Assembly (NCBI GenBank): GCA_963971425.1
Contig: OZ020514.1
Coordinates: forward strand, 27,144,602 to 27,208,601
DNA length: 64,000 bases
Direction of reading: 5' to 3'
Source: Bryoerythrophyllum caledonicum
Taxonomy: Eukaryota > Streptophyta > Bryopsida > Pottiales > Pottiaceae
Position numbers and translations under genes: made by a program. Below are positions 2,937-64,000 of this stretch, one piece after another. The notes under the pieces were generated by a model. The model did no database searches. It was not told the DNA's origin and saw only the letters and a program-made list of their open reading frames with translations. Within the stretch, counting starts at the first letter, position 1; the number at the start of each line of letters is the position of its first letter.

Positions 2937-3845
2937 TGACGAATGGACCACGCATTGTGTCCATTAAGGTTAACAAAGTAGTGGAAATGGGTTATCCCAT
3001 TGGTTAGCTCTTGGTTTTTGATGAAAATGGCTTAATAGCCTTGCCATTTACTAATTCCTTAATAGGAGCCACTTTATGGCAACCACGGATTTTATTACGT
3101 TAACCAAAAAAATATTTAGGAAGGAAAAATGAAGAGAAGATTGAGCAAAAACAAAGACAATAGAAAAGAAGAAGAAATAGAAGTGGTGGAGAAGAAATTA
3201 CCTCCTACCGAGTTGGGGACCACAATTGGCCACGGTGAAGAAAACACGGGAAAAAAAATTGAGAGAAGAAGAAGAATGATGGTGGGGGAAAGGAAAAAAG
3301 AAGGAGGCTTAAAAAGCCCTCAAAAAGTAGTTAAAAGGGCCCAAAAGGCTTGAGCAAACCCCTCACCAATCACTAAGTAAAGTTAGGAATTATCCTAAGC
3401 AAGGGGAATTCAATCTAGGTAGATTAATTAGATTTAGCATCCTTGAATTTAGCTTAGTGGTTCACTTATTGGAGATCATGCGCACCCCATGTGGCATGAA
3501 GTTAAAGTTGAGATTTAGGAATTCGTTGATTAGTGGGACAACCACTTTTGTTAAATGCAAGGGTGGCACGGAGATAAGTGTCATAGGTTAATAGGTTTTT
3601 TAAGACTAAAGTCATTAATGGAAGAAGGCAAAGGCGGCGGGGAACGCCCTTAGGAATGAGCGGGGAGCAAAGGAGCTTGGGGGTTACCCCCTGGAGGGCT
3701 CTCATTCTCTTGACGGGTGAGTGAGAGTGAGTGAAGGTGAGTGAAGGAAAGGGAGATAGGGAATGAAGGAGCGTGGACAAGGAAGAGCCAGTAGCCCCGG
3801 CCAGTGAAGGGAGTTTTTATTGTAGGAAGTAGCGAATTCGGTGAC

Positions 3846-6142
3846 GAGAGCAGAGGAGAGCACGATCACGAAGAAGAAAATGACGACAGCACAGGAGAGC
3901 ACGATCACGAAGAAGAAGAAGACGACAGCAGAGGCGAGCACGATCACGAAGAAGAAGACGACAACAGCAGAGGCGAGCACGATCACGAAGAAGAAGAAGA
4001 CGACAGCAGAGGGGAGCACGATCACGAAGAAGTAGAAGACAACAGCAGAGGCGAGCACGATCATGAAGAAGAAGAAGACGAGCGTAGCGGCGAGCACGAT
4101 CACGAAGAAGAAGAAGACGAGAGCAGAGGCAAGCACGATCACGAAGAAGAAGAAGAAGAAGATAGCAGAGGCGAGCACGATCACGAAGAAGAAGAAGACG
4201 ACAGCAGAGGGGAGCACGATCACAAAGAAGAAGAAGACGAGAGTAGTGGCGAGCACGATCACGAAGAAGAAGAAGACGACAGCAGAGGGGAGCACGATCA
4301 CAAAGAAGAAGAAGACGAGAGCAGGGGCGAGCACGATCACGAAGAAGATGAAAACGACAACAGAGGGGAGCACGATCACGAAGAAAAAGAAGACGAGAGC
4401 ACAAGAGACCACGATCACGAAGAAGAAGAAGGCAAGAGCAGGGGCGAGCACGATCATGAAGAAGAAGAAGACGACAGCAGACGGAAGCACGATTACGAAG
4501 AAGAAGAAGAAGACAGCAGTAGAGGGGAGAACAATCACGAAGGAGAAGAAGACGACACCAAAGGACAGCACCATCACGAAGCAGAAGAAGACGACAACAG
4601 ACGGGAGCACCATCACGAAGAAGAAGAAGACGACAGGAGAGGACAGCACCATCACGAAGCAGAAGAACACAACAGCAGAGGGAAGCACAATCACAAAGAA
4701 GAAGAAGACAACAGCAGAGGGGAGCACGATCACGAAGAAGAAGAAGACCGCAGCAGAGGGGAGCACGATCACAAAGAAGGAGAAAACGAGAGCAAAGGCG
4801 AGCACGATCACGAAGACCAAGAAGACGACAGCAGAGAGAGCACGATCACGAAGACGAAGAAGACGACAACAGAGGACAGCACGATCACCAGGAAGAAGAA
4901 GACGACAGCAGAGGCGAGCACGATCACCAAGAAGTAGAAGACGATAGCAGAGGAGAGCACGATCACGCCGAAGAAGAATACGACAGCAGAGGGGTGCACG
5001 ATCACGAAGAAGAAGAAGATGACGACAGCAGAGGCGAGCACGATCACGAAGAAGAAGAAGACGACAACAGAGGCGAGCACGATCACGAAGAAGAAGAAGA
5101 CGACAACAGAGGGGAGCACAATCACGAAGAAGAAGAAGACGATAGCAGAGGCGAGCACGATCACGAAGAAGAAGAAGACGATAGTAGAAGAGAGCACGAT
5201 CACGAAGAAGAAGAAGACGACAACAGAGGCGAGCACGATCAAGAAGAAGAAGAAGACGGCAGCAGAGGAGAGCACGATCACGAAAAAGAAGAAGGCGACA
5301 GCAGAGGGGTGCACGATCACAAAGAAGAAGAAGACGACAACAGAGGGGAGCACGATCACGAAGAAGAAGACGACGATAGCAGAGGCGAGCACGATCACGA
5401 AGAAGAAGAAGACGACAGCAGAGGGGAGCACGTCACGGAGAAGAAGAAGACGGCAGCAGAGGAGAGCACGATCACAAAAAAGAAGAAGGCGACAGCAGAG
5501 GGGTGCACGATCACGAAGAAGAAGAAGACGACAACAGAGGGGAGCACAATCACGAAGAAGAAGAAGACGATAGTAGAGGAGAGCTCGATCACGAAGAAGA
5601 AGAAGACGACAACAGAGGCGAGCACGATCACGAAAAAGAAGAAGGCGACAGCAGAGGGGTGCACGATCACGAAGAAGAAGAAGACGACAACAGAGGGGAG
5701 CACAATCACGAAGAAGAAGAAGAAGAGGACAACACTGGAGAGCACGATCAAGAAGAAGAAGAAGATGGCAAGAGAGGAGAGCACGATCACGAAAAAGAAG
5801 AAGGCGATAGCAGAGGGGTGCACGATCACGAAAAAGAAGAAGGCGATAGCAGAGGGGTGCACGATCACGAAGAAGAAGAAGAAGAGGACAACACTGGAGA
5901 GCACGATCACGAAGAAGAAGAAGAAGACGATTGGAGAGGGAAGCACGATCACGAAGAAGAAGAAGACGATAGTAGAGGAGAGCACGTTCACGAAGAAAAA
6001 GAAGAGGACACCAGAGGGGAGCACGATCATGAAGAGGAAGAAGACGATTGCAGAGGAGAGCACGATCACGAAGAAGAAGAAGACGACAGCAGAGGGGAGC
6101 ACGATCAGGAAGAAGACGAAGACGACAGCAGAGGGGAGCAAT
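3846..6142. repeat. 39-bp minisatellite, about 59 units
   Basis: Tandem repeats of a 39-bp unit, roughly GAGCACGATCAC then GAAGAAGAAGAAGACGAC then AGCAGAGGC, fill 2.3 kb with point changes and small 3-bp length changes. Because the unit is a multiple of three and purine-rich on one strand, frames stay open on both strands for hundreds of codons. One plus frame reads HDHEEEEDDSRGE per unit, another STITKKKKTTAEA; the minus strand gives hydrophobic VLPSAVVFFFFVI. Long ORFs here (3804-4937 and 4994-6151 on plus, 3702-4820 and 4808-6169 on minus) are by-products of the repeat unless transcripts show otherwise. Confidence 0.95.
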
Positions 6143-7290
6143 AAAAGCTAATAAGAGTACAAAAAACAAACATAGAAAACAGAGTCATAACCACGAAGAT
6201 AATGAAGAATTAAACTTTGGGCATAAAAAGAAGAAGCCTGTCTGCTGGTCGCTGCTGCCAGGGTCGCACTTAGGCTTGGAATTGGTTGTTGAGGTTCTAA
6301 TCAAGTTTACAAGGTGGAATTAAACCTGTCGAAACTTTAAAACGCTGAGAACGGGGTTTTGAGGTGGAACTTATGCTTATTTTAAAGTTGGGTTTAACTT
6401 AAGGCTCAATCTAACCATTACAGCACTAATCATTAACGAACCTTCTCAAGTGACCACACCTTGGGTCACCGTGCTTGTATGAATGGTTGAATAGGGCCTG
6501 CACAAGGGGTTGTATCCCACATTAGGGTCTTGTGTTCAAGGTAAGCCATCCATTAGGGGGTGGTTTATTTGGCTCACAAAGATCTAGCGGATTTCCGGTA
6601 GGAGTAGCTAGGAGGAAAGCTAAGGTTAGAAGGGACTTAGTTAGTACTTGATTGTGAGGTTTTGGAGAAAAACCTTTCATCTTGTCCTTCTCGCTCTAAA
6701 TACACTTCAAACCTTATTACCAGACTTGCTTCCTTGTATACTTTGGTGTAGAGTGTAGACTTTGTGTGATTTTTACCTTGTTAGTGCGATTGTATGAGAA
6801 TTCTCCCGGAAGGCAGAGTGGTAACCATGTGCGGTAGAGGGGAAATCGGTTAAGGTCCGTGTCGAGAGATCGCTTGGGAGAGTTGGAGGGCTGTTGCAGA
6901 GGTGTGCCTGGTAGAATCCAGGGTCCGGAAGTAGCCTGGAGGGGAAGAGATGAACTACAGAGGTGTTCCTGGTAATCTCTAGGAAACGGAAGTACTCGTG
7001 TTAACCTGGATTCCGGTCAAGGCCGGAGTTCTCCCCAAAGATAGGAACAAAGCCTGATGCGTAGGTCTAGACATAATACCCTCGACGAGTGCTAACCTCC
7101 GCTCCGGAGATGTACAATCATACTTACCGGAATGTCGTTGTAATCCAAATTTTACTCTGTGTGACCGCATTCACAGGGCCATCCGGATGTCGTGACAGTC
7201 TAAGTTTAGCAACACCAATCAAATCACCGGTTAGCGAAGTAGGAGAGTGGTGTTCGGTCACTATAAGTTCCGGACCAGGAATGCTAGAAT

Positions 7291-10757: not shown

Positions 10758-11282
10758 CTAGCGTCGTTGAGTTCCGGACAGTGGGTGCCTAGCCACTTAA
10801 AGTCAGCAGGCAGTGGAAAATCCAGCCACTTACACAAATTAGGATCAGTGGACTTCGGCCACTTGCTTAAGAACTCCAAGAGACTCTCTGAGGAGGAACA
10901 GAGACAAATCAAACTACCCTCCGGACTTTCGGAAATTACTTTCCGGAAGACATTGTACACAATCCGGACTCCGGAAGGATCCGGATCCCTACTACACAAG
11001 CAAAGAGCATAGCTAACCTTTGAAACGATTGTTGTGATAGTTTAGTATTTAGGAGTGTTTGGAAAAGAACCTTAGGTCTCTATGGGAACGAAACTGGAGC
11101 GGTTACTTTGGAAGCATATAGTGACGATTAGGTGCATTTTGGAGGAATATTGTCTCTACGAACTGCAACAGAAGACCTTGCCGGTGACAACAACCCCGTG
11201 TCTGATCATAGCCCACCTAGGGACAACTCTGCAAACGAGCACAATGGAGATGCACTACATGACCATTTTCACAATGTCCACG

Positions 11283-20930: not shown

Positions 20931-21039
20931 CTACCTGGGTCCGCTAATCCTGGTTCTTTGCTTAACTATATGTCTAGTTAGGGGTACACTTTGCAAGCTG
21001 TAAAACTCACTCAATAGAATCACCTAGCACTCGCCACAA

Positions 21040-21533
21040 TGTCGATGTAGTCTGAACTGTCTTCTGCGCAATCGCATTCGAATAGCCATCCGGATGATGT
21101 GAAAGCGTCGGTTCAGCAACAACAATCATCTACTGGTTAGCGGAGTAGGAAGAGTGGGTGTCTAGCCACTTTAAGTTACGAGGCAGTGAGGAATTTGGCC
21201 ACTTACACAAACATGATCAGAAGCCTTCCGATTACTCGTTTAAACCGTCCAAATGACTTTTCTAAGGAGGATCAGAGATAAATAGAACTTCTTTTCAGTT
21301 GTCCGAAAACTATTGAAAGACATCCAATATCCGGAAGGATCCAAATTTTGAGCAAAAGAATGAATAGGAAAGCTAACTTGTGGAGCAGCATTTCATAGTT
21401 TTAGTTTTTGTAGTATATTCATAAAAGAACAAAACGTCTCTATGGGAACAAAATTGGAGCGGTTATTACTTTAGAAGCATTAAATGAAAATTGAGTGCCT
21501 TTTGGAGGAATACTAACTCGACAACATGCAACA
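21040..21533 (+). mobile_element. Alpha element, copy c (3' end fragment)
   Basis: It matches the last about 450 bp of Alpha copies b and d in plus orientation, including GTGGGTGTCTAGCCACTT and the GGTCTCTATGGGAACAAAA-like stretch, and stops at the same terminus (ATGCAACA, 21526-21533). It is more diverged than b and d. Its 5' part is missing; a boundary lies somewhere near 20950-21040. It abuts the methyltransferase polyprotein at 21534. Confidence 0.7.
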
Positions 21534-23340
21534 GCTTGCCCTTTATAGCCTCCCAAATCATGAAGATTATAGGCAGAACAGCTACGATGCAAACGTATGA
21601 ACGCTCCTACTCTTCGTGCCTCATCATTAGTAAGATGTGGCCCCAAATCCAAAGGCCAATCATCAAACTCCGTGGTCTCTTTCTCCTTTGTAGAAGACTC
21701 ACCCCGTATCGGCACGATCGGTGATTGATACTTTGTAGCAGAGAGGGCATTTATGACCCTTGACTTCTTACTCACAGGATCCACAAAAAATCTCGTGTCA
21801 TGGTAATAAAACCGGGATGAGATATTTGAGACATCCTCTCAACCACAGTCATCGGCCAAGGCTGCAAAGACACACTGAGCATGAAGCTCCTCTGTTGCAT
21901 GCCTCTTCACACGAAAAAAACAACTTTGCTTCCTCAATCTTGGTGACATGTGGCATCACTGCCCCATTACCATTAAAATTTGCCCCTAGCACGCGTAGAT
22001 GGGCACGCAAATGGCGCTCAACGGCATAAATGAGGCCACAAACTTACACGAGGTGTTGAGGTCAATGGCTTGACCCAACAAATGACGACATTGGCCCTCA
22101 AAGAGATCCAGTGCGGCGGTGGTGCCTGTCAAAAAGCCCATTGCTCGCTCCCTCTCATTGGCACAAGGCACCTTGTAAATTTGAGAAGTAGAATCCTTAA
22201 CCATGCCCAAACCATGTGTCCTAAAGCCAAAAGACCCTAGGTAGCACATCAATGTGGGAAATTCCCCCCAAGTTGAACCAATTCGGTTCAACACGGCCAA
22301 TGGTGGCTCATCATCCTTGGTAACCTCCGTGGAAACAACATGGTTGTCTAAGTTGTCATCGACCTCATGGCGTACGGGTCGTTGCACTTAGACGAGTGCA
22401 AAGCTGAGCGGTGTCAATGATGCCATGTTGGTCCAAATCCAACGTGGCCGATGGGTGTAAGAGCCCAATGCAGCCGCATCAACAAACGTGAGGGCGCCAA
22501 GGAGAAGATGGATATATGCCGCATCCCCATGCACCTTTGTCCATCTATCTTCCAATGGGGGTACATTCTCAAAGTTGTAATCTAGTGGCATCGTTTAGTG
22601 GGTAACCCACCACTGAATGAGCTAGAGCAGACCAACAAAGAGACCCAAGCGTAATTCATCCAAGCCACGTCCAGTGACCGCCTGTGAATGGTCTTGGCAA
22701 GGCCATCCCGGAATCACCAAGTCCACGTGACCTAAACGGCGCAGATCATCCTCTCCGATGGACATCACACTACGTGCCAACTTGCAAAAATGCCCCCGAA
22801 TGGCAGAAGGTGATAACTACTGCGGATACAACGCCACAAGATGCTAAATGTGATGGTGAGTGGCACGATTGGTTGCAAAGCTACTATCCACGTGGATATA
22901 CTGGTGTACCTAGAATTTGGCCTCTAATACAGCCTCGAGCCTTGTATCAGTACCGGCAAATAGCTCCACGAGAGTAATACCCTCCTCTAGTGGTCGCCAC
23001 TAAATAGTACAAGCCAACAACGTAGTGGAAGAGTCCACTGAAAGTTATGGAGCATCAAGAGTATCCACAATCTCTCGACTGCAATGAGTGAGTTCCAATT
23101 GAGATCGTCATGGAGGAAGTTGATCCTTGCAATGACGTGAAGGGATCTTCACCAATCGGTGCTCACGTGATTCCGCTATCCCCAAAATAAAAGCATATGT
23201 CTCTTCCAGAAGCATAGAACCACATGGCAAATTGGAAGCCAAAGCACTATAGCCAAACACAACGTCCTCTATAAAGTCACCACGCTAGCTGCAAAGACAA
23301 TTGGAATGAGCTCCATTCTGCCATCACCGGCAGTCTACCC
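21440..23340 (-). pseudogene. Retroelement polyprotein with C5-cytosine DNA methyltransferase domain
   Basis: C5-methyltransferases transfer methyl groups from S-adenosylmethionine to cytosine in DNA. All recognisable parts lie in one minus-strand frame. In order these are a leading segment with RGDFIEDVVFGYSALA (about 23280), motif I VELFAGTDT (22951-22978, normally FxGxG), motif IV DLVIPGWPCQDHS with the catalytic Cys (PCQ at 22694-22702), motif VI FENVPP (ENV at 22562-22570), motif VIII HRPRWIWTN (about 22426-22452), a target-recognition-like region, and motif X around ERERAMGF and LLGQAIDLN (22050-22160). A linker ending in AYNLHDLGGYKGQ follows, of the kind found before Gypsy reverse transcriptase. 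About ten in-frame stops and no frameshift are seen, so it is inactive although the key residues remain. An upstream segment continues right of the Alpha insertion at 27351. Confidence 0.85.
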
Positions 23341-23448
23341 AGGCTTAATCCAAGCCTCTTCTGTTCAGTTATCCACCCCAAAATCAAATGGATAAAGGGC
23401 TTGCTAACCCACGAATACACAACATTCTAATTCAAGTACCACCATAGT

Positions 23449-26400
23449 TGTTGCAGTTCGTAGAGACAGTATCCCTCCGGAATGCACCCAATCGTCACTA
23501 GATGTTTTCCAGAGTAATCGCTCCGATTTCGTTCCCACAGAGACCTAATGTTCTTTCTCCAATATTCTGGATTACGAAACTATATCCCAGCAATCCGTTT
23601 ATGAGTTAGCTATAGTCATTACTAACGTAGGGTAGATCCGGATCCTTCCGGATTCTGGATTATGTACAGTAATTTCCGGTAAGTAATCTCCGGAAGTCTA
23701 GAGGGTATTTTAATTTATCTCTGTTCCTCTTCAGAGAGTCTCCTGGAGTTTTTAAACGAGTGGCCGGAGTCCACTGACCTTATTTTGTGTAAGTGGCTGG
23801 GTTTCCCAACGCCCGGTGACTTTAAGTGGCTAGGCACCCACTGTCCGGACTTTATAGTGACCGAACACCACTCTCCCTACTCTGCTAACTGGTAATTTGA
23901 TTGCTGATGCCAGACGTCGGCTCTCACGACATCCGGAAGGCCTCCCGCACGCGGTCATACAGAGACTAATCCGGACTACAACGACATTCCGGTGGGTATG
24001 GTGGCAATTCTCCGGAATAGAGGCTCACCGTTTCACTATGGTTATTCCGTCTAGGTATTGGTGTCAAGCTTTTTTCCTATCATAGGGAAGAATTCCGGTA
24101 TTGTCCGGAATCCAGTTTTGCACGGTTCCTACCGCGAACTAGAGATCCCCAGGAACACCTCTGCAGGTTATCTCCTTCCCTCTTGGCTACTTCCGGACCC
24201 TGGAGACTACCAGGAACACCTCTGCAATAGCTCTCTCCAGCTCTCCCGGGCGAACTCCTGACACCTACCTTAATGGTTTCCTCCTCCGGCAAGACAGTGA
24301 GACACACTTAACCGGAAAATAAACTTACACAACCCTACCCACAAGAATGGATCCGACACCCACGAAGGTCTACACACCACTCACATGCACGAGATAGCAA
24401 GGATGGTCCAAAAGAGTAGTGTGTATTACTAAGTGAGAATACAAGACAAGAGGTTTTGCCCAAAACGTCACTACTAAGTACTCTTTGAATTCTCTAATTT
24501 CAGATTTTCTTCTACCCATGTCTACGGAAAATCCGCTAGATCTTGTCTAAAAGATCCGAGAAATCCGGAAAAGTCCCAGATCGGATCTCAGATCCTAAAA
24601 TCTCGGGACATTTCCGGCCTCCGGAATTCCTAGTCTAACTACAAAACTGGCTATTGATTCCGGCAGCAGCCGGGTGCACTTGGGGTCCCATCGTTAGTCG
24701 CTGCTAATCCGGACTCTAACCCTGAGAAAAGAAGAAAAAGAAACATAAAATCTAACTAATCCTAAGTGGGAGCTCCTGGGCCCCGATTTCTCCCACTCCG
24801 GCGGGAGGGGGAGATCTCCACCGGAACGCGCGCCTTATCCTTTGCCTTCTTTGAAGTCGCCGGTGAAAGGTTGGTCTTCCTGGTTGATGGTCCGGCTGGT
24901 AGAGGAACAACCACCACCGGAGTACTCGCGTCTGACGGTGGAGGGGGCTGTGCCGGAGAACCTTCCGGAAGCGGAGGTGCTGAGGCCCCCGCATAGGAAG
25001 CTGACCCGGTCTCCAGGACCAAGTCCCTGTAGCTTCCGGACGGACTCTTGGGTCCGGACGCCAACCTCCGTGACACGGACCTTGGTGCAGTTGGGAGGCC
25101 GCCTTCTGCCGGAGGATCTGGCAGCCGCATATTGGATGGCGAAAGGAGATCCAGAAGCGTCTTCAGGATCTCACTTGTACTCGGGTTAGGGGGTACGATC
25201 CCCTCCGTCGGCGTCCGTGGCGAAGTGTCTAGGGACTCCGGATTCGCGGAGGTTCCCGGAGCTGGAGTGGTCTTGGTCAGTGGTTCCGGAGGACCTGCGG
25301 TTCGTGTTGTGGTCGGGGTGCCTTCCGGTCCAGGTGCTGCTGGTTCTTCTGAGAATTCCACGACAATGTTATTGACAGCAACTTCATCTGCTCCCAAGTC
25401 CGTCTCATCTTGTCCGCCTCGTCGAGGAGAAACCGGATGATGTTGGCCCGAGTGACCTTCTCTTTCTTCTCCACCAGTTTGGTGAAGAGCCGGCTCCGGT
25501 TGACCACGTCGACCGGAATGTCCAGGGCTGCCCGGACCTCTAGTATGGCTGCTACGGAAGCGTTGGCCTTCTCTTCCGCCAATTTCCGGGCCGTCACTGC
25601 TAGCATTGCCTCTTCGAGGTACCGCTTCATCTTCTTCTCCATTTCATTGTTGGCCTTGTACAGAGACGCAATCTGGGTGTGCAACGCCTTTGTGCCCACC
25701 TCCCGGCTCCAGAGTTCCTCCACCTTGTGGATGGCGTCCTCCAGTCGTTCCACGCCCAGGCTCCGGAAGATCTGCTCCACACTAGTGGTGATGATGTAGT
25801 TGGTCTCCTTAAGGAGTCCAACCCTCCAACCAATGTCGCGGGTGAGCTCATCCATCAGCTTGAGCTGACCCTCGGAGTCGTCCCAATCCACCTTCCTCTT
25901 CTTCCGGTTGGTCCCCTCTAAGGGTCCAGACTCGTCTTCTCCGGACGATGCAGATGAGCTACGGATGCCCGGACTCTCCGTCTCGGGTTCCTTCCCCCGC
26001 GGTCTCTTTGGGGCCTTTCGGCCTTCCGGAGTGCTGGTGGTGGCTGCTTCCGGAGCTAGCTCCCGTTCTCCGGATTCTTCTTCTTCAGACTCGTCCCCTC
26101 CGTACTTCTGGAAGTTGAGGACGATGTCGTACTTTCGGACTTCCGCCGCAGTGAGTTGCTGGTGGTGCGTATAGAGGTGTACCACATAGGAGGCCAAGGA
26201 TGTTGCTGTCTTCTTCACCTTCTGGAGGTTGGCTACAAGACGGTTGATCATGTCCGTCATGAGCGTTCCCCAATCCACGACTATCTTCTTCCGGAGTGCC
26301 CCGAGGAAGGTGCAGGCCCACTTCGCCACCACCCGCTTCGGCTTTTCCGGATGGAAGATAGGGTTTAAAAACCCTAGCACAAGCTCGGCGTCCAGGTGCC

Positions 26401-27350
26401 GAAGGTCTTGCATGTTGTAGCCGTCCTTCGGGTCCGCCGGGCTCGCAAATTTGTCCACCAGGAATTCGTCCCGTCGTTCCACCACTTTGGTGCGTCCGCC
26501 ACGGAAGTCGTACGCATGGGACCATTCCGGAACTCCCCAGTTTTCCGGATGGGCTCTCAGCAACCCCTTGTACTTCTCATCTGGGGTGCCGATGAGCTCC
26601 TGGACGTAGACCTCCTCTCGCATGCCCCAGGGAACTTCGAGTAAACGCTCGCAACCCATCGTCTTTAGGCTTGACTTCAGGAGGTTGAATTCGTCTAGGT
26701 CCTCGGGGATGTCCGGAAGGACGCGGGCCAAGGGTGGAAGCCCCACTGCCGGCTCTTTGTCTCTCCTACAACGTCCATCTCTATCCGTCCTCTTCGTCTT
26801 AGCCATCGGCACAGACTTCATGAGAGCTTCCTAAATCCTCACAGTCTCTCAAGGTAGTCCCTGCACGCACCGTCCTCACAAAAGCACTCCCTAACGGACA
26901 CACGTCCGTTCTAACCGTCTAAGCTTCAAACCCTAACGGCCAGAGGTTAGAAAACCGTGAGCGAGAAAGAGAGAGAGAGAGAGAAGAAGAAAGCCTTAAT
27001 GCGAAACCCTGCACGCGAAGAAGAAATGGAGAAGAAAGAGTTTTTCCCCCAAACCCCATCCTTAAGTAGTCCGGCCGTTAGTACGGAGTCGTGATGACAG
27101 TTGATGGCGATAGTTTCGGCTGACGGTTCCGGAGAACTGACTGCCCCGAAATTTTGGTAACTGCTCCGGCTCTGATTTTAACATCTTTTGGCTTAATTAG
27201 GGTTTGCAATCCGGCCCATCCGCCGTTATTCTTACCTGACGACTATAGGATGTATCCTACTGGGAACTATCATAACTACTTAACTAATTTTTTTGTTTTA
27301 GCCGGATTTTTAAGTTAACTTCCGGCACCATGTGGAAACGGAGTCCCACA
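23449..27350 (-). mobile_element. Alpha element, copy d, complete (3902 bp)
   Basis: Flanked by a perfect 5-bp duplication ATAGT at 23444-23448 and 27351-27355. In minus orientation it starts with the hairpin end TGTGGGA...TTCCACA at 27350 and ends ...AACTGCAACA at 23449. TG...CA ends and a 5-bp duplication indicate integration by an LTR-retrotransposon integrase. The order is terminal hairpin, about 530 bp leader, ORF1 (26821-24762), then 1.3 kb rich in CCGGAA/TTCCGG. No direct terminal repeats, RT or integrase are visible, so this is either a very long solo LTR that contains a gene or a non-autonomous element. It sits inside the methyltransferase retroelement. Confidence 0.85.
24762..26821 (-). 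CDS. Alpha ORF1, gag-like protein, one frameshift
   Basis: ATG at 26819-26821 (a second ATG five codons on). The frame runs 514 codons to 25277. The true continuation is the overlapping minus frame ending at 24762. Comparison with copy a shows that one base is missing near 25375, so the ancestral product was about 690 residues. Visible parts are a basic N-terminus (1-25), a conserved globular region (about 40-235, with ELIGTPDEKYKGLLRAHPE and WACTFLGALRKKIVVDWG), an acidic Glu/Ser-rich segment (240-310), a Lys/Arg cluster, a long helical, probably coiled-coil region (320-500), and a Pro/Ser/Thr-rich tail of about 190 residues. No zinc knuckle or enzyme motif is seen. A structural role is inferred; it could instead be a captured host gene. 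It is much better preserved than neighbouring elements. Confidence 0.7.
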
Positions 27351-27640
27351 ATAGTCCACCCAATTAGGTTAGGGGTCCCAAGGCCTTGTTGTATGGGAAC
27401 CTACAAAGCCCTTGGTGGAGATCACATGTCGGTTGTCTCTAATGAAATTAGTGTAGGGAAGCACTTAGAGTAGAAAAATGTTTATCCTCGAGAGGGGGAA
27501 GTAGTTCTATACACAGAAGCCTATGTCCCGTGGCCATATGCTTAGTGAAGAGAATGAACAAACACTACATTCACGCCGGTCCCATTATAAGACAATAGTT
27601 TTTCTTCTTCTTCTTTGCAAGTCCAATGGAACCATTTAAA
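27351..27640 (-). pseudogene. Upstream flank of the methyltransferase polyprotein
   Basis: This is the sequence that was contiguous with 23443 before Alpha copy d inserted. On the minus strand a frame with RPWDP and PNWVDY leads across the duplication into the methyltransferase frame, with stops. No domain is recognisable. Confidence 0.45.
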
Positions 27641-27872
27641 GCAAAGAGCCGCTAAATTTGGTTCCAACAAGATCTTTGCATTCTTTAATCATCACCGCAA
27701 TTATGTCCTTCCCAAGAAGTTGGGAGGAAAACTAAATTTACAATATAAATATAGTTCTCTAACGCATGGGAAGAAGGAAGGCCTTTGCCAAGGCGAGAAT
27801 GGAGTTTTTCCAACTTTGTTCCTCTATACCTTTAAAGGGTTGATTCCCCGCCCTCACGTCCTCGACCTCACG

Positions 27873-28107
27873 TCCCCGCCCCTAACGTCCCCGCCTCTTC
27901 CCCGCCTAATTTTGGAATCAGAAAACTTTGGATGAGCATAACTCACTCAAAAATATCCCAAATCAAGCATTTGAGGTATGTCTAGGCATTTAAATTTTTT
28001 GTAAATGCCAGAAAACATCTCATACGCTTAATTTGGACTATTTTTGAGTGAGATATGGGCATTTAAAGTTGTTGATTCCAAAATTGGGCGGGGAGGGGCG
28101 GGGACGT
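27873..28107. repeat. Foldback (inverted repeat) with GC-rich ends
   Basis: Two arms of about 110 bp are inverted around a short A/T spacer near 27990-28005. Both contain CACTCAAAAATA and AATTTTGGAATCA and end in GTCCCCGCCCC-type sequence. The arms are roughly 80% identical by eye. This is a MITE-like or foldback structure without coding sequence, lying between the gag at 28.4 kb and the methyltransferase. Confidence 0.75.
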
Positions 28108-28437
28108 CTCCGCCCTAGTGCCATGGTGGCGTGATACGTCTGAATGTGACGTGGCCATCATAGTAAAAAACTTACTTGCAAAAAACTATTGGGCGCACTT
28201 TAGGCAATCCGTCCGAACTGTCCGCCCATCCGGTTGTCCCGTCCGATCACCTCAACCCGTCCATTATGACAACCCTGCTTCAAAAAGGCCATTGCGCTCA
28301 TCCACTTCTTCAACTCCGCCAATTCGGCATGAAGAGTCTATACTGCATCCAATCTAGCAGCAAAAGACCCTAGACGCTTTTTCGGATGAAGAGAAAGCAC
28401 TTCTGATCATTATGGCTAGTCTTGCCACAATGAGAAC

Positions 28438-29500
28438 ATGTCACAACTTCTTATCCTTGCCCCCAACCTTCTCAGCGAGCTTCGCTGCCTCGGACTTAGG
28501 TTGTGCATTCACCGTGCTTGCCCCCTTCTTCATGGAACAATTGGAGTCTCCCTTGGTGTGACCCGCCTCGCCACAAGCCCAACAATGCACAACCGTTTCA
28601 GGTTGTGCCTCTGCCAAGCTACCAATCGCTCTAGCAAGTTTCTTGGGCTTTTGAGCCTCCAACAGTGACGTGACCAAATTTGTAGCCTCGCTCACGCCCA
28701 ATGCTCTATCAAGCGCTTCTACCTCGGCAAACACTTGTGCCAAAGTGGCATTGCCGTGATTCCGGAAAAGAAGATGTGGACTAATCAACTCTACCATCTG
28801 CTTGTCCAACTTGGAAATGAAAACCTTCACCTGCTCGTGCTCTGAGAACACATCAGCGGCCTCTCCTAACAATCGTGCCAACCAAATATACATAGTGCGA
28901 GGGATATCTTGCTACTCTCAACGGAAATCCAAGATGTGCTGCATCTTATCACGCGTGAATCCTCCATATTCTACCTCTAGATGCGCCATGAGTTGCGCCA
29001 AAGGATCCAAGGCTGGCGGATCGCCAACCACCATCAATGTAGCACGTGTAGCTACGGCCAAACAGAACATGGTTCCCAAGCCAACACGTTTGCTCACAAT
29101 GGCAATACCCTTGCCTCTAGAGTCCGCATTGAGGAAACTATTTTCGACCTTGAGCTCTTTTGTGGAAGTCGAGAGTTGAGCAATTGCGCTATTGATGCTA
29201 ATACTCTTCAAGACGGCGCAACTTTGCCTCGTGCTGCAAGGTCCATCTCCCGTATGATTGAAGGGCCTCCAACTCCAAATGCTAGGACACGAGCTCGAAC
29301 GAATATCAATCGTTAAACGACGACGTCCATTCACGCTTTTCCTTCATCCAAGTCTGGAATTGGAGCCGCCAATTGGGTAGGGAGATGCCCCCAACTCGTC
29401 CAAAGCACTTGTTTTGTACGACATGACAGAGATTGTCCACCATGTTATCAAACGTAGCCACATCCCAGACCCAAATCCTATAATCAATATCCAACACCGA
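28438..29500 (-). pseudogene. Gypsy-type gag G2 (probably of the methyltransferase element)
   Basis: One minus-strand frame covers 29334-28441 with a single internal stop near 28915. A further upstream piece (29497-29306) is in another frame. Downstream of the stop, TMYIWLARLLGEAADVF and VKVFISKLDKQMVELISPHL are typical of plant Gypsy gag capsid regions. A knuckle CWACGEAGHTKGDSNC follows, with spacing CX2CX4HX6C instead of HX4C. A Lys-rich end closes the frame at 28441. It has the same orientation as the methyltransferase polyprotein and lies upstream of it, so I infer that both belong to one element. Confidence 0.75.
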
Positions 29501-29529
29501 AACAAGCTTAAATGCCTTGTTGATATCCG

Positions 29530-31100
29530 ACCCTAGCTCAAAGTTTGTAGTAGAAGCATTTCACGAGTAGACTGGTGAGGAAAGCGGTAGAACCAACTCT
29601 AGGTACTGACCATGAACAAAAACCACCTCAAGACCTATCTACGGAAAGTATCTAAAGGATATGGGTGCAGACAGGCAACCTGCACCTACAAAACCACCAA
29701 ATTTTGTAGTTCACCGATCATCACCTCTAGCTAGCACAAGTCCAACCACAAACCCCCACATAAAAAGGTCTTGCCGGCCTTGCCGGCCCTACTTCATTCT
29801 ACGGTACCCTATTGCAATCTAGGACAACAAGAAATGGGGCCACCGGAAAACACCGACAATAAGCTCACAACACGGAGCAGGTACTGCACAAGAATCCAAA
29901 AATTAAAACCAGATCCTCTCTCCAACAATATTAAAGCAATAAATGAAAATGACTAGAGCCACTAGCACTTCCCTGCAATGGATAGTCACAAAGCCGCAAA
30001 AACCGCAACAAAAAAAAGGAGGACACTCAAGAGTGTTTCCCCAAGTCCCAAAACTTGAAGTTCTATGGAAATTTTTGGAAAGTTGGTGTTCAAAAATACA
30101 ATTCAGCCTTAAAACTCATCACTTAGGGCTGAGGATCAACTCCAAATGCCAATCCAATAATATCAATGGATTTCTTGGCAAATTTCACATAAAGTGAGCG
30201 CAAATTTTGCTCAAATCCAAGCTAAATTGCCTCCACAAATGAACTTCAAAGATTAGACTAATCTTTTTTTATTTAACACCCACAATAATGTGGTTTTTGA
30301 AAAACTTTTTAATCAAAAGTTTCTCATTCACACTAGATAGAAACTCCTCTAGAAGGCTCGAATTCAAAGTCAAAATCCTAAAATAGTAATTATTTTGGAA
30401 GATATTAGCTCACAATTAAATAAATCTGCCCAAAATTGCAGTTTCATCCACAGTGGATGAAACATGAGGCCGCGGATGAAAAATTGATCTACGGATGAAA
30501 AAATTCAAAATGGACGAAACTATCGGCAACAGGTGCAGCAACTGTCCTTCTTCACTCCAAACTTTCACCGCCCTCAATTTCTTCAAAATTTGTCCAAATC
30601 ACGTGCCATTTGTTGCGTTGAAATCGTATTAATGCGCACTACAACATCAATCTAAGTACCTACAAAATGATTCCATCTTTCTCATTAGAGACTATTTGAG
30701 GTCATTGAAAGGCCTTTGCGGGGCAGTCCCTTGCGGAAAAATGACGGTGACATCACTGCTATCCATCGTGTTACCAATGCTGCCATGTTGATGACTCCGT
30801 TGAAATTTCCTAAAATGGGCCAATGAGGAAGGTTGGGAGCAGTCGACGTGGAATGTAGACTATTTGAGGTGGAGTACGTACTTACGGCCAGTCAATAAAC
30901 TAGGAATATTTTTTAATATGCACGGTAGTTGACGTTGACCTTGTGCTCAAGTTCTTTGTACGCATGCTAGAAGGATAAACACTTTAAAATTGATCAGCTT
31001 CTATATAATAAGATAAGAATTGCATAATCGATAATAGAAATTGGGAGCTATTTGAGCGGGAAAATTGCCACAAGGCGCAACATGGAGCAACAGTCATACA
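29530..31100. other. Spacer without recognisable gene
   Basis: AT-rich sequence with only short open frames. A small cluster of GGATGAAA-like motifs lies at 30440-30520. I see no domain, RNA gene or element end here. Confidence 0.6.
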
Positions 31101-32799: not shown

Positions 32800-33085
32800 G
32801 GGCAGTTCGCGGTCAATCCGCAGGCGGTCCGCGGCCAGTTCGTAGTCAATCCACAGGCAATCCGCGACCAGTCCGCGGGAAGTTCGCGGCCAGTCCGCGG
32901 CCAGTCCGCAGCGAGTCCGCGGCCAGTCCGCAGCTTGTCCGCGCCATGTCCGCGGCCATTCCACGGTCAGTCCGCGGCCATTCCCCTTTCAGTCCACGGT
33001 CATTACCCTTTGAGTCCGCGGCCATTCCACATTCAGTCCGCGGCCATTCCGCAGGCAGTCCGCGGGTTGTCTGCAGCCATTCTGC
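32800..33085. repeat. TCCGCGG-rich subterminal block, left
   Basis: The motif (A/G)GTCCGCGGCC recurs about every 10-20 bp. This looks like the dense subterminal repeats to which hAT transposases bind (known for Ac/Ds-type elements; binding here is inferred). Confidence 0.8.
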
Positions 33086-33089
33086 ATAC

Positions 33090-34755
33090 CCCCTCACCTT
33101 TGAGCGGACATAGCGCACGGAGTTCCTGCTCAAATCTTACGTTTGAGGACATTTAAAACATCTACGTTTCACGAGAATGTCGAAAATGTCCTCACAGTTG
33201 ACATTTGAGCCGGTAACCAAGGTGATGTGGCCTCCTGTCCGCGGGCAGTCCGCGGGCTGTCCGCAGCCATTCCGCGTATTCCCTCACCTTTGCGCGGACA
33301 TAGCGCACAAAGTTCTTGCTCAAACCTTACGTTTGAGGACATTTTAGACATCTACGTTTCACAAGCATGTTGAAAATGGCCTCACACTAGACATTTGAGT
33401 AAGTAATCAAGCTAATATGGCCTCTTGTCCGCGGGCAGTCCGTGGGCTGTCCGCAGCCATGCCGCGTACCCCCTCACCTCTGCGCAGACATAGCGCACGG
33501 AGTTCTTGCTCAAATCTTACGTTTGAGGACATTTTGGACATCTAAGTTTTAGGAGGATGTTGAAAATGTCCTTACAAATGACATTTGAGCAAGTAACCAA
33601 GGTGATATGGCCTCTTGTCCACGGGCAGTCCGCGGGCTATCCGCAGCCATTCCACGTACCCCCTCATCTTTGAGCCGACATAGCGCACGGAGTTCCTGCT
33701 CAAATCTTACGTTTGAGGACATTTAGGACATCTATGTTTCACGAGAATGTCAAAATTGTCCTTGAAAGTGTATTTTAAATTGAGTATCCGGGTTGTAATA
33801 GCTAGACTCGTTGTCCACAACTCTATTGGACCCCATCCAACTCCTTCTATTTCGGAGGTTGTGGCGGAATAATTATTCCTTCATTGTTTCTTGTGAAGTC
33901 ACTTTTGGCATCAACATTTAATAAGAATGTTAAGAACGTCTTTCTTTATATGATTTGAATAAAATGTGAGGTTGCTAGAGCCTCCTAAATGTGGCCATAT
34001 TCTCCCACCCTACTTCTACTATCTATCCAACTTTGAGACCTTCTCCCTCTTCCTCATTCCTCCCTCTTATTCCCTCTTACTCCCACTTCGTCTCTTGCCC
34101 TCTCCTTCCCTCCTACTCCGTCTCCCTCTCCTTCCCCCCCCTCCTTCCACTCCCTTTCCCTCCTTGTTTGCTCTCCATCTTCCTACCCCTGTCTCTTTTG
34201 TTATTTCTTTCTCAATATCTTTCTTTTCTTGTTTTTTTCTTAAATTCATTTCTTTGTGGATATGAATATTTTCAACTTAGACTTCATGATTTTGTTTTTT
34301 GAATAAACAAGTATCTCTTTTCTAAATTTCATCCTTATTGAAATCCTTCTTGCTCTATTCTTTTCATGTGTTTTTATTCTTAGTTAATAGCTTGGTGTTT
34401 TATTTTTTTGTTTAAAATGGTTAAATGCTCAATCATTGACTCTAGTGTTTCACGATAGGCTTCTTCTATGGAGTATGTTCTTTAAAATACCCATATGGCA
34501 TTCAAATTTAGTTCTACCAACCAATTAGTTTGAAGCAACTTTATGGTTGGTACAACCTTCCAAAGATAATTTGTGAAATCCTTGCAATCATTAGTCTTTA
34601 TGAAGCTCCCTTTTTACCCATATGAATCATGTAAGATCCATCTTTGGCATTAATAGTTTGTATGGATATCCAATTTGTCTTTTCATGTAGCATTTGGTTC
34701 CATATGGAAGCTCTTTGGGGTCCCAAAGCATAAACCCTTCTTCCTCCTTCTTCCT
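33090..34755 (+). repeat. Inverted arm, left
   Basis: Collinear with 38975-40640 on the other strand: paired positions add up to 73730 at every point I checked from 33141 to 34684, which means no insertions or deletions. The translations of 33169-33351, 33966-34265 and 33991-34302 are identical to their partners. The C/T-rich stretch 34020-34220 (complement G/A-rich) lies in the arm. Confidence 0.95.
33120..33765 (+). repeat. 190-bp tandem repeats in the left arm
   Basis: About four units of about 190 bp, each with GCTCAAATCTTACGTTTGAG, ACATCTACGTTTCACGAG and TCCGCGGGCAGTCCGCGGG. The units differ from one another by several percent yet match their partners in the other arm. Confidence 0.9.
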
Positions 34756-35934
34756 AATTCTTTTAATGGCAATTTTTGGAGTGGGATCATTCCTTTCCGC
34801 GCTGTCTTTCCTCTTCTGGTCTCACTCTTTTTTCCTTTCATTCTCCATAGTCTCTCTCTCTTCTTGTATAATTTTTTTTTTTTGAAAAATTGTCCTTCTC
34901 TTTCATTATTCTCTTTAATTATCTTTTATTGTTGATTTGACATCATTTTTGGATTTTCTCATATTTTAATAATAATTCTACCACTCAATTTAGAAAGTAT
35001 TTAATCTTTTTCTTAGATCCCATGTAGGCTTTCAAATTTCCTTTATAAAAATTGTGTTTGCTTTTTAATTTGATGTTTATATATATTTTTCTTTCCTATT
35101 GCCCCTCAATGAATAACTTATTTTCTTTGAAAAGTTGTCCTACTTCCTCCCTCCTTCTTCCTCAGTATTTCTATTTAACTTTTAGTTTTGGTCTTTCAAG
35201 TGGCCCTATTCTTAGTAAGTATTTTTTGTGCTATAGAAAAATAAATAAACACGTCATTGAAAGTGCCCTTGGAGCTCAATTGATCGGACTAAATAACATC
35301 AATTATTATTAATGGAGAGATTGATGATGAGCTTTGGTAATTAATGCATTATTTCTAAGTCCAACTAGTTTGCAGCGCCACATTATCATTAAGGATTTCT
35401 AATTTGTCTCTCTTTTATAAAGATTTGTTCCTCCTTATAAAAAATTTCCCCTCTCTAATTTGCATTATTGTTAAGCTCAATGAATTTGAATCGCCATGTC
35501 AGCGGGGCTCTCTATTCCTCTTTTAAGTCATTGTCCCTCTCTGAACCTCTCTCCATTGATTCTCTAATTTTTGTTTTTGAAAAAGGAATTCCATATCTCC
35601 TTCCGTTTCCCTCTCTATGTCTTGTTTTATTTTTATTTTAAAGTCTTTGTTGCCCTTTATTTAATTAATTATACACTATTAAGAAAATTCTTTTCCTTTA
35701 ATTCCTTATAGGATTTCCTCCTTACTTTTATGATTCATTCCTTCCTCCCTCCCACTTCTATTATGTTTTAAAATTCTAATTTAGATTATTCCTCTCTTCT
35801 CTCAAACTATCTTTTGTAATTGAGATTATTCCTCACCCACTCTCTTCCCTACTTTAATTCAAACTGTCTCTCAACGACTCTGTTTCATCTCTTCCCCCTC
35901 TCCATAGCCCTTAAATTTCCAAGGTTTGTTTACA

Positions 35935-38670: not shown

Positions 38671-38974
38671 ACAAAAGTATGAAAAGCTCAAAAAGTATAT
38701 AATCATTGATTTGTTGATAAAACATGGATTTTTTTAAATGCAAAAATTTAAAGTTGAATTGCCACAAAATATAAAATATTTCCCTATCCACAAACATTGT
38801 CATGTTTTTTTATAATATGCAATGTATATAATATATTTCAATCAAACGACAACTTTTTTAATAACTTATTTGTATGTAAATCAATTTCTTTAATTTCCTT
38901 GAATTTGAACCAAACGCTTGCTGAAATATAACATTCTTCATAGACTTTTTCAACTACAAACCGTGAAGAGAATT

Positions 38975-40640: not shown

Positions 40641-40840
40641 GTACGCGGAATGGCTGCGGACAGCCCGCAGACTGCCCGCGGACAGGAGGCCATATCACCT
40701 TGGTCACTTGCTCAAATGTCAATTTTGAGGACATTTTTGACAGCCTCGTGAAATGTAGATGTTGGAAATGTCTTCAAATGTAAAATTTGAGCAAGAACTC
40801 CGTGCGCTATGTCCGCGCAAAGGTGAGGGGGTACGCGGAT
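39960..40840 (-). repeat. 190-bp tandem repeats in the right arm
   Basis: About five units of the same repeat in opposite orientation. The outermost one (about 40640-40840) has no counterpart at the left. Confidence 0.9.
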
Positions 40841-61478: not shown

Positions 61479-62480
61479 GTGAACGGGCCCGGTTTTTCTC
61501 GGAGAAACACCCCTTTTGCGGTAGGCGTTCGTGAAAGAGTAGTGGAGAAAGTTGTCACTCAATCGAAAGATGAGGAGGATACAATCCAACCGGTAGTAGA
61601 AGAAGAACCTTTTGGCGAGCCTGACGTGAGTGTTGTAGAATCCAATCTACTCAAGAAGCGATATGAATCAAATTTTGATTTGAAAAACATGGCCATAATA
61701 TATGGAGGTGGAGAGCGTGGTGTACAGAGATTTTTGAGTTCCATGGGCATCATCGAGGCCGATGACTTCAAATGAAAGTTCACCATGTGGTGTGAACTCC
61801 AGCAGTCCCATAACCCCAACTTCAACCCGTATATGGTTTAGAGAGCCTTGTTTGGATGTCTAGAGGGAGCTCCATTAACAGATTATGGAGAATTTGAGGC
61901 GGCTCACCTTGTAGAAGTCTTGGGATGGAAAGATTTCTACGCATCAGATTATGTGGATGTTTTTGGTGGGGTACCGAGGGTGCCATCACTCATGGGCAAG
62001 GAAAAACAAGAGGAGGGCACAAGAGGTGCGGGTAAGATGAGGCAAACAGTGGAAATGGTGCATGTTCCACCTCTATTTAACCCCATAGCCATGTTCTTCA
62101 TATAACTTTGCCGAGACTTCAAAGGTCAACGGGCGGACAAGATGAAGGCGTTGAGCTCATTCGCACGAGGAGAAGATGAATCCTTGCTAGAGGCTCATGC
62201 GAGATTGTAGAGACTGATCTCAGCTACTCATGGAGCCACGGAGCAACAGGCGGTGCAACATTGGAATAGTATCTTTTAGATGGAGCTTAAAACCTTAGTT
62301 TGCGATGAGGCATTGCGTTTGAATGAGGCACCGACATTGCGATTTGTGTTTAAGGCTTCAGAGCAAATTGGGATCAATATGTTGGAGGAGAAGGCATCCA
62401 TGGGATTTCACAACAGCAATGATTGCAAGCAAGGCAAGTCCTCCACCCTCCAGGCTGGTGGATTATTTTTATTTGCGGTG
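61479..62480 (+). pseudogene. Gypsy-type gag G3
   Basis: One plus-strand frame runs from 61479 to about 62480 with five in-frame stops (61773, about 61840, 62103, 62208 and 62277) and no frameshift until the end. It includes LVEVLGWKDFYASDYVDVFG, then FKGQRADKMKALSSFARGED, AVQHWNSIF and RLNEAPTLRFVFKASE, which follow the pattern of plant Gypsy gag capsid. A remnant zinc knuckle ICGAKGHSKAKC (about 62470-62510) keeps CX4HX4C but has lost the first Cys. Gag builds the retrotransposon particle. Confidence 0.75.
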
Positions 62481-62502
62481 CCAAAGGGCATTCCAAGGCT
62501 AA

Positions 62503-63974
62503 GTGTTAGAAGCTTCACCCCAATTGAAGCCTTCTGGAGGGAAAGGAGGCAAGGCTAGAGGCAAAGATAAGGACTCGAAGGCCTCAGGAGGGGAGAAGAA
62601 GAGTTGGAAGGCCAAGTTTGCAGAACTAGAGGCTCCAATAGCGGCCATGGCTGCAAATATTGCTTTAACAAGTGAGAAGCCTCAAGTCACCCCTAGTTTA
62701 CATATTAAGGGCGGGTTTAGACCCGATGATGATGATTTTGAATGTTACATGTTGAGTGGTATGGGACTTGTTACCACAGATGGCGTGCGGGAGGCTTATG
62801 TCCTCACACGGAGCCAAACACCGATGATCAAAGAAACATTATGTGGAGCAAGCCCAATTCTAGACCCTCAACATGGGAAGGACAATCGGCAAGTTTGTTT
62901 GCCACAGTCGTTTATGTTGGAGGAGATGGTGCCAACATCTTCCATGGTACTTCCAAATCGGTAGGGGGCGCCTTTGACACGCCCTACGGTTAGGGTTGAA
63001 GAGCCACCGGAAGCAGTGGTCACCGAAGCGTCAAACATGGTTTGCCAAGCTTCATTGTATTATGCGAAAATGATGTCACAGAAAGGCTTCAATTCGGCAA
63101 CAGTCTTGAAGATGGCGGCCACAATGTGTGAGTTAGATAATTCCACGAACGTCAATGCTTTGAAGACAGAGATGATTGGGGAAGAGGCGGATGAGAGTCA
63201 TGGAGAAAATGTGGAGGGTCTGCTTTCAACAGCCATGCGTGTCAAGACCATGGCCGCTAAACCTGCAATCGAAAGGTCATCCATTACACTTGGTGTGGTG
63301 GTGGTTGACAACTCCTAGGGGATTTTCCAACTTGTTAGGCCTTAGGGGAGGGTGTTGTACCTCAACGAGTACTTTTGGATTCAGGAGCTCAACTGTTGAT
63401 GCTAGGAGCATCTGCCATGGAGGGGTTGGGTTCGACTCGGGACACTTTGGAGAAGTGTCCATGGAAAATTAACACGTCTACAGGGGTACGGAGTAAGCTA
63501 CGGACATCACAAAATTGGAGTTGATGTTGCGACTCAATGAAGATGAAGTCGAGGATGCGAGTTTCATGAAGGTGAAAGCTATTGTCATGGAGGCCAAGTC
63601 ATACGATGTCTTGGTGGGCTCGGAAGTACTATTACCCCATTGGGTTCACCTTGGATTTTGGGAGGAAACCGCAAAGTTATAGACCAGGATAGCAAGCAGG
63701 AGATGGGCGGAAGGCACAGCTGCCAGATCGTTTTATTCAAGTTCTGACTGGCAACTTTGCAGATGTGTTTGCCTTCTCGGAAGGCATGGATGTAAGACCA
63801 CCATGGTTTCATGAGAGTTTTGATAATTTCTCCATGGATACTCTTACACTTCATGAGATGGATGCCCATGTGGGTGACACAAGTGGTAAGCCAGGGCATT
63901 TGGCCATGTCAAGGATTGTGAATGGCTGGACATTAGAATGGGTTGAAAAATACTTGTTCCTTGCAGTTTCATAA
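62503..63974 (+). pseudogene. G3 gag tail, protease and downstream polyprotein
   Basis: After a frameshift near 62500, a Lys/Gly-rich tail (62503-62964) and a further segment (62974-63318) continue the polyprotein. Then LLDSGAQLLMLGASAMEGLG follows, with the D-S-G-A protease active site at 63378-63389 and the typical YDVLVGSE strand at about 63605. The final part (63700-63974) reads on with GNFADVFAFSEGMD and stops at 63974 or leaves the window. RT would be expected further right. Stops and shifts show that it is dead. Confidence 0.7.
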
Positions 63975-64000
63975 TATGATCCGCGTATTGCGTGTGCTTC

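Follow-up and report, generated by a model that had tools for sequence, protein, structure and literature searches.

The DNA analysed here (the window) is a stretch of 64,000 nucleotides from Bryoerythrophyllum caledonicum (Pottiaceae; contig OZ020514.1), the minus strand of which carries the remains of a C5-cytosine DNA methyltransferase domain. The best explanation for this locus, to which we give a probability of about 0.72, is a dead and broken copy of a Ty3/gypsy-type long terminal repeat (LTR) retrotransposon that encoded a DNMT3-like C5-methyltransferase between protease and reverse transcriptase (RT); the identity of the relic as such is close to certain. This explanation is based on the homology of its gag, protease end, methyltransferase and RT linker to a relative with open frames, L001, as well as to proteins of named liverworts and algae, on the joint divergence of methyltransferase and RT, and on the catalytic residues retained in open-frame relatives.

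Remains of the element in the window

In a single minus-strand frame, VELFAG (motif I), PCQ (motif IV), ENV (motif VI), RPRWIW (motif VIII) and a stretch with LLGQAIDLN follow each other, and by the ordered motifs I, IV (PC), VI (ENV), VIII (RxR) and C-terminal the domain is a member of the C5-methyltransferases. These five motifs in this order had been named in a preceding interpretation made from the letters alone (the sequence-only reading), and were confirmed by the motif order and by the top match among open-frame proteins, P0001 (E 7.8e-129, 66% identity; P numbers denote database proteins). A search of 5.8 billion proteins with the window domain gave 15 relatives at E ≤1. The family match foreseen for a profile search was obtained in part: with stops read as X, the window domain alone scored below the Pfam cutoff (PF00145, E 0.0041, 17 bits against a cutoff of 22) and matched the PDB weakly (DNMT3B best, E 0.013), whereas P0001 was above the Pfam cutoff (E 1.2e-12, 48 bits). 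PF00145 was above the cutoff in five of the eight relatives scanned, the short P0011, P0012 and P0015 giving no Pfam match, and the NCBIfam dcm profile gave E 2e-11, yet 44 bits against a cutoff of 100.65. The low family score of the window domain alone is ascribed to its damage; judged by sequence, its relationship to the C5-methyltransferases is far beyond chance.

The frame holds the motifs in order, as had been proposed, but is not open: six in-frame stops lie within 316 codons (22999-22052), three inner single-base gaps interrupt the 1.9-kb alignment to L001, and frame breaks surround the domain. The copy is dead, a truncated relic without an open frame inside a nest of elements. An Rfam search of the window sequence gave no match, and a tRNA at 22359-22452 within the methyltransferase, a lone ARAGORN call, was taken as spurious.

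The relative with both long frames open, L001 (CADCWO010000201.1, 9285 bp), is labelled as a cyanobacterial metagenome-assembled genome (MAG) and was one of five loci obtained when contigs of prokaryote genomes were scanned with five aligned relatives; the other four are weak Streptomyces matches. The two ends of its contig share 127 bases, which would fit an element assembled with a single collapsed LTR. The first open reading frame (ORF1, 3-3491) contains the CCHC portion of Gag, a retropepsin region (8e-4 in Pfam, below cutoff) and the methyltransferase (DNA_methylase, 7e-12), the start of Gag being located at the opposite end of the contig, and the second (ORF2, 3492-6635) contains RT (RVT_1, 128-286 in ORF2 coordinates, 4e-31), RNase H (RT_RNaseH, 374-478, 2e-38), integrase (H2C2, 614-668, 1e-17; rve, 687-780, 1e-13) and a C-terminal PHD finger (4e-10), most similar to those of CHD4 and PHF12 and almost as similar to that of UHRF1. 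By the order RT, RNase H and integrase, L001 belongs to Ty3/gypsy; the window copy is without RT. In the tree, the window and L001 are sisters (99 SH-aLRT) within a 16-row clade at 100.

By blastn, L001 1803-3684 corresponds to window 23415-21534 (80.7% over 1884 columns), and L001 8532-8991, 9233-9285 and 75-815 correspond to pieces of window 29701-28281 (72-79%); the gag alignment to L001 covers 741 columns at 77.6%, and the gag remnant of the window shows a zinc-knuckle match at E 0.0012, below the Pfam cutoff. L001 815-1803 has no counterpart at the locus, where about 4.9 kb of gag-like frames of another element are present instead. The methyltransferase lies inside the extent 21440..23340 given by the sequence-only reading, but the homology extends to 23418, the end of the retropepsin region; likewise, the linker described there as preceding a Gypsy RT matches the start of L001 ORF2 (Table 1), but is followed by no RT, since queries cut from 126 RT-bearing proteins gave no RT in the window at E ≤1e-3.

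The branch of L001 in the protein tree is almost nil and that of the window is 0.38, and therefore L001 is close to the ancestor. Relative to L001, C-to-T changes in the window copy, counted on both strands, amount to 100 of 400 at CG and CHG against 84 of 650 at CHH (odds ratio 2.2, p 1e-6), a contrast to which codon usage could add. This excess, as would be left by methylated and deaminated sites, makes it probable that the window copy was methylated by a plant-type host system. Together with the relationship to elements of liverworts, the decay at CHG sites accords with a bryophyte host, perhaps a moss. The differences between the window and L001 up to the stop are 97, 92 and 147 per codon position (p 2.6e-4), a skew which, under the same caution about codon usage, is a sign of past protein-level selection before the window copy died. 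As to the evasion of host silencing that had been suggested for such an element, nothing shows it, and the decay of the copy is of the kind left by CG/CHG methylation.

The methyltransferase piece is flanked by inverted LTR-like repeats, which we take to be two opposite-orientation insertions of one LTR family, because the right arm runs on into LTR-like sequence belonging to a gag-like element; alternatively, the piece may be a captured fragment inside a DNA transposon. Copies of this gag-like element are located at 4-2456 and 24902-27350 (79%), the latter with a 517-residue frame without Pfam match, and its LTR-like repeats at 10773-11170, 23449-23849 and, inverted and diverged, 21029-21536. 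A second, different relic near the window end is closest to Marchantia P0035 (gag 38%; E 5e-5 for its motif IV stretch when 3 kb were searched), and the presence of two methyltransferase-element relics within 64 kb points to an abundance of such elements in the genome. Elsewhere, an inverted repeat (33048-34769 / 38961-40682), with 1.72-kb arms that are 99% complementary, lie 4.2 kb apart and hold tandem units of 190 bp and CAGTCCGCGGC-like repeats of 11 bp, resembles a foldback-type element of recent origin, and about 58 copies of a 39-base repeat occupy 3843-6140, with long open frames on both strands, that of the plus strand being acidic (GEHDHEEE-like).

Table 1. Features of the window related to the methyltransferase-bearing element and its neighbours
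Feature	Positions	Strand	Basis or remark
RT-frame start (linker preceding RT), cut off there	21530..21727	-	71% to L001 ORF2 residues 1-66, E 6e-25
Methyltransferase C-terminal extension, to the point where open-frame relatives of the clade end their first frame	21731..22051	-	tblastn of P0001 and L001 ORF1, alignment to L001
C5-cytosine methyltransferase domain, relic (motifs I, IV, VI, VIII and conserved C-terminal motif)	22052..22999	-	homology, motif order
Protease-to-methyltransferase linker	23000..23266	-	tblastn of P0001 and L001 ORF1
Retropepsin region, C-terminal end (counterpart of the ILVGQQALYP stretch of relatives)	23278..23418	-	tblastn of P0001 and L001 ORF1
Gag remnant of the same element family, three pieces	28275..29701	-	72-79% nucleotide identity to L001
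Foreign element sequence between gag and methyltransferase remnants	23446..28281	.	holds gag-like frames 26830-24762 (-)
LTR-like repeat, right arm, directed away from the methyltransferase piece at its right edge	23446..23997	+	62% to left arm; 81% to 10773-11170
LTR-like repeat, left arm, inverted, at the left edge of the methyltransferase piece	21029..21536	-	same repeat as right arm
Second, different methyltransferase-element relic: gag, retropepsin, WPCQG motif IV stretch (63901-63999)	61707..63999	+	cut by window end

The wider family of related elements

In the protein searches 8000 candidates were scored among proteins of 0.55-1.75 times the query length, and the lack of RT in first-frame proteins is therefore biased, because fused proteins of about 2400 residues fall outside this range. 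Within this cap, the L001 methyltransferase gave 37 matches in longer proteins, and L001 ORF2 gave 2908, of which 120 were listed. Among the matches listed, the named green hosts are Marchantia polymorpha, Calypogeia fissa, Riccia sorocarpa (no methyltransferase in that protein), strains of Closterium, and Klebsormidium nitens. P0140 and P0158 of the chlorophyte Tetraselmis striata contain a short methyltransferase piece before RT (E about 1e-9), which suggests that chlorophytes may also carry such elements. Viral contigs contained no relative with P0001 or the RT frame as query, and the alignment A2 found there six loci with weak matches only (38-61% in short segments).

A local set of 173 proteins was composed of 171 database proteins and the two frames of L001. 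The methyltransferase profile matched 81 of them (including L001), the RT profile 126, and both profiles 34; the PHD profile matched 74, together with RT in 72 and with both RT and methyltransferase in 19. The two parts were compared in 25 of the 34 two-domain proteins and in L001, leaving out P0038, P0043, P0066, P0140, P0150, P0156, P0158, P0169 and P0171. The methyltransferase precedes RT in 18 of the 25 and follows it in seven (P0045, P0048, P0051, P0102, P0113, P0117 and P0143), lying in all seven between RNase H and integrase. These seven form one clade of the RT tree at 100; P0143 is placed outside the other relocated methyltransferases in the 59-row methyltransferase tree (57 of the 80 methyltransferase-matching database proteins, L001 and the window; fragments and some partial or redundant rows were removed by hand), and joins them at 98 in a tree with outgroups. 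Patristic distances of methyltransferase and RT agree (Mantel r 0.70, p 0.0001, 26 elements), and therefore the two parts travel together.

Of 58 domains in the alignment, 57 have a letter at the position of the motif IV Cys, and 56 of these retain it. Because open frames are favoured in databases of predicted proteins, this retention is partly due to selection of the sample, and the observed loss is a lower bound. An exact ENV is present in 47 of the 58. The residue before the motif IV Cys is P in 40 domains, E in 15 and other or missing in three, with at least five changes on the tree. The E form (ECQ, ECK or ECA) was identified in P0040, P0043, P0045, P0048, P0050, P0051, P0093, P0110, P0113, P0117, P0123, P0133, P0134, P0165 and P0168, including Closterium and five of the seven proteins with relocated methyltransferase, and the PC form in the window clade and Klebsormidium.

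Origin, expression and possible function of the enzyme

A PDB search with the profile of the five relatives gave 49 sequences at E 0.01, with DNMT3 at 5e-11, M.HaeIII at 2.5e-5, M.HhaI at 8.5e-5, 4onj ('DNA methyltransferase') at 1.3e-3 and DRM2 at 7e-3, and none of the 49 was named DNMT1, CMT or DNMT2. By the closest solved structure, vertebrate DNMT3, far above the bacterial enzymes and DRM2, the domain is DNMT3-like. In DRM enzymes motifs VI-X stand before motifs I-IV; the order here is I, IV, VI, VIII and the C-terminal motif, and the domain is not a DRM because its motifs are not rearranged. In the outgroup tree (31 database proteins, L001, eight different rows of bacteria or phages, taken from 10 loci, and two DNMT3 rows), the bacterial rows form a separate clade at 100. 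When the retroelement-borne methyltransferases were held together, the log-likelihood was 11 higher than that of the quick tree (AU 0.669), and so a single origin, as far as these alignments go, is allowed, not proved.

An old, single acquisition of the methyltransferase by a gypsy lineage of green plants, inherited thereafter with the element, would probably account for these relationships, because the elements of Klebsormidium, Closterium and bryophytes have related methyltransferases on related RTs and the two trees agree. P0098 of K. nitens (KFL_009030040, partial) is 46% identical to L001 in the methyltransferase and 47% in RT-integrase over 88% of L001 ORF2, and by both parts L001 is kin of the KnitGypsy-Dnmt3 lineage, the exact placement in the trees being weakly supported; the identity of the L001 methyltransferase to Closterium P0123 and P0110 is 36-41% over the aligned parts. 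The sequence-only reading had proposed a separate, new lineage of capture, which is disfavoured by the same agreement of trees, and had let the methyltransferase frame continue into the linker preceding RT; in L001 a stop closes the Gag-protease frame after the methyltransferase, and RT is in the second frame. Its placement of the methyltransferase within a gypsy-type polyprotein, in plants beyond the published alga, is upheld by the relatives from Marchantia, Calypogeia and Closterium; the contrary picture of a stand-alone host gene without pol is contradicted by L001 and the 34 proteins with methyltransferase and RT.

Independent capture, in which the bryophyte elements took the methyltransferase from host DNMT3 separately from the Klebsormidium elements, draws on the weak support of the deep branches of the methyltransferase tree, the long branch of P0098 without firm partner, the clade with the methyltransferase elsewhere in pol, and trees made without plant host DNMT3s, and the authors of 2018 assigned the acquisition in charophytes to the lineage of K. 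nitens (PMC5890265, in the passages available). We consider it unlikely, as the two trees agree, the methyltransferase stands before RT in most two-domain proteins, and the identities of L001 to P0098, P0123 and P0110 contrast with a match to DNMT3 at profile level only. A host or domesticated DNMT3 gene lying by chance beside retroelement debris could be imagined from the LTR-like repeats of another family on both sides of the piece, but with the piece preceded by protease and followed by the RT linker, just as in L001 and in single proteins that fuse methyltransferase and RT, with six stops and no open frame, it is extremely improbable, and it was rejected on L001 and the 34 two-domain proteins. 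No more credible is contamination by a bacterial or phage enzyme: L001 and P0003 carry bacterial MAG labels and the C5-methyltransferases of bacteria, plasmids and phages show weak similarity, but L001 is of LTR type with gag, RT, integrase and PHD, its kin are proteins of Marchantia, Calypogeia, Closterium and Klebsormidium, and a bacterial origin was rejected by the separate clade and by plasmid matches of at most about 34% identity in the five listed rows of 35. The MAG label of L001 is most likely due to plant DNA binned by mistake.

The methyltransferase might also act on RNA, either element RNA or a tRNA primer, or serve as a non-catalytic part of the particle. A structural role fits the Gag-level placement, motif IV is unusual in having E for P before the catalytic Cys in 15 of 55 scored domains, and RNA methylation was raised for a LINE-borne enzyme without DNA methylation in yeast (PMC5890265, in part). 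The nearest solved kin are however DNMT3 enzymes, the catalytic Cys and ENV are largely kept, PCQ is kept in the window clade, and the DIRS-borne enzyme of Symbiodinium methylated CG de novo (same passages); we regard this role as a minor prospect.

ORF1 and ORF2 of L001 share one register and are separated by a lone TAG followed by CAATCA. For readthrough of the type of tobacco mosaic virus, the context rule is CARYYA after the stop, and the sequence of L001 fits it. ORF2 has its first Met at residue 117, after the point where the RT profile begins (48) but just ahead of the RVT_1 match (128). The same ALSATK-like motif ends 12 relatives, which were picked because they end alike, and the stop codon and its context between methyltransferase and RT are known from the nucleotides of L001 only. 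Whether the enzyme is expressed at Gag level by readthrough is, in our judgement, evenly balanced.

A mechanism can be proposed on these arrangements. The methyltransferase would be made within the Gag-protease precursor, hence at Gag level, and a minority of ribosomes would read through the UAG into RT-RNaseH-integrase-PHD; from the order Gag, protease, methyltransferase, stop and RT, the enzyme should be plentiful in the particle. Protease would free it inside the particle, where it could methylate new double-stranded complementary DNA (cDNA) before or during integration, a self-methylation to which, on sequence, we give slightly less than an even chance. The PHD finger of the integrase would bind histone H3 tails and guide insertion, the PHDs of CHD4, PHF12 and UHRF1 being readers of H3 N-termini, and the pre-marked copies would enter the genome resembling silent host chromatin, with less harm to the host and less detection of the element. 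DNMT3 joins an H3K4me0 reader to its methyltransferase; by analogy, the element may have rebuilt this pairing of reader and writer across two proteins.

Several points weigh against parts of this scheme. A search within 23200-29000 for direct repeats that might represent an LTR pair gave none. Only 19 of the 72 proteins with RT and PHD match the methyltransferase in the same protein, and therefore the PHD may be unrelated to it. The quick outgroup tree puts two vertebrate DNMT3 fragments among the retroelement-borne enzymes, plant host DNMT3s are absent from the trees, and the preference of protein databases for open frames bears on the Cys count. Readthrough rests on one nucleotide sequence, L001, which contains two TAGCARYYA sites against 0.36 expected, and 15 of 200 shuffles also reach two, so that by itself the context is weak. 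In P0053 and P0054 a Met lies early in the RT frame, which makes re-initiation possible there, and a sister group (P0003, P0005, P0006, P0013, P0014 and P0022-P0024) ends the first frame differently, so that the stop and its context need not be shared. Taken jointly, an ancient lineage from green algae to land plants with a kit for writing and reading chromatin, in which a leaky UAG places a methyltransferase at Gag level that pre-methylates cDNA, a PHD-integrase delivers the copies to chosen chromatin, the methyltransferase moved once to between RNase H and integrase, and motif IV changed between PC and EC five times or more, perhaps with a change of chemistry or substrate, is a tentative picture that we think less likely than not.

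Relation to known systems

Retroelements with their own C5-methyltransferase are known as SymbioDIRS-Dnmt3 and SymbioLINE-Dnmt, which resemble the present element in this respect but are other retroelement classes in dinoflagellate hosts with an unrelated capture; SymbioDIRS-Dnmt3 is reported to have de novo CG activity and the tested SymbioLINE-Dnmt showed none in yeast, and the self-methylation of retrotranscribed DNA was suggested there (PMC5890265, passages available). The plant DNMT3s PpDNMT3a/b (Yaari et al. 2019, PMC6453930) are likewise DNMT3-type C5-methyltransferases of non-flowering plants and a possible donor, but are host genes with a DUF3444 C-terminal part, gag or pol being unmentioned in the accessible part of that paper. 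Retroelement-borne enzymes were not mentioned in the available parts of PMC8226279, PMC10952607 and PMC9516144.

The finger after the integrase matches the PHDs of CHD4, PHF12 and UHRF1 in Cys/His pattern, but forms the C-terminal end of the RT-integrase frame. In some gypsy elements a chromodomain occupies this C-terminal position of the integrase. The combination of a PHD and a Gypsy-like integrase is on record for a Ginger1 DNA transposon (PMC2836005, in the part available).

The titles, abstract openings and passages of the open-licence literature contained no description of such an element in mosses or liverworts, nor of the link to Gag, the in-frame UAG, the PHD as partner, the relocated methyltransferase or the EC form of motif IV, some of which may be in the figures or supplements of PMC5890265. 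The spread suggests that such elements are wider than the single published case of a green alga. Why a parasite carries a parasite-silencing enzyme is a puzzle; a lineage that has persisted in widely differing green hosts, its Cys almost always retained and its methyltransferase tracking RT, is harder to dismiss as an oddity than the single case from a green alga and the few from dinoflagellates, and since the genetic model Marchantia polymorpha holds members, the question is testable.

The closest known system is KnitGypsy-Dnmt3 of Klebsormidium nitens, a gypsy element with a DNMT3-related methyltransferase (de Mendoza et al. 2018, PMC5890265), and gypsy elements with a DNMT3-like enzyme have been known as a kind since then. 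As far as the available text of that paper goes, both are of gypsy type with a DNMT3-related methyltransferase in the polyprotein that is not rearranged as in DRM, and P0098 of K. nitens is kin in both methyltransferase and RT. They differ in that the window element is in another host group, and that in L001 the methyltransferase is not in one frame with Pol but ends the Gag-protease frame at an in-frame UAG, with a PHD after the integrase; P0098 has methyltransferase and RT in one frame and no PHD listed, but is partial, and the repeats of KnitGypsy-Dnmt3 are arranged as in DIRS elements according to the legend of 2018 (PMC5890265). Apparently new are the bryophyte spread, the Gag-linked position with the stop, the PHD partner, the relocated methyltransferase and the change from PC to EC; and the Gag-linked position predicts many methyltransferase molecules per particle, unlike an enzyme made with Pol only.

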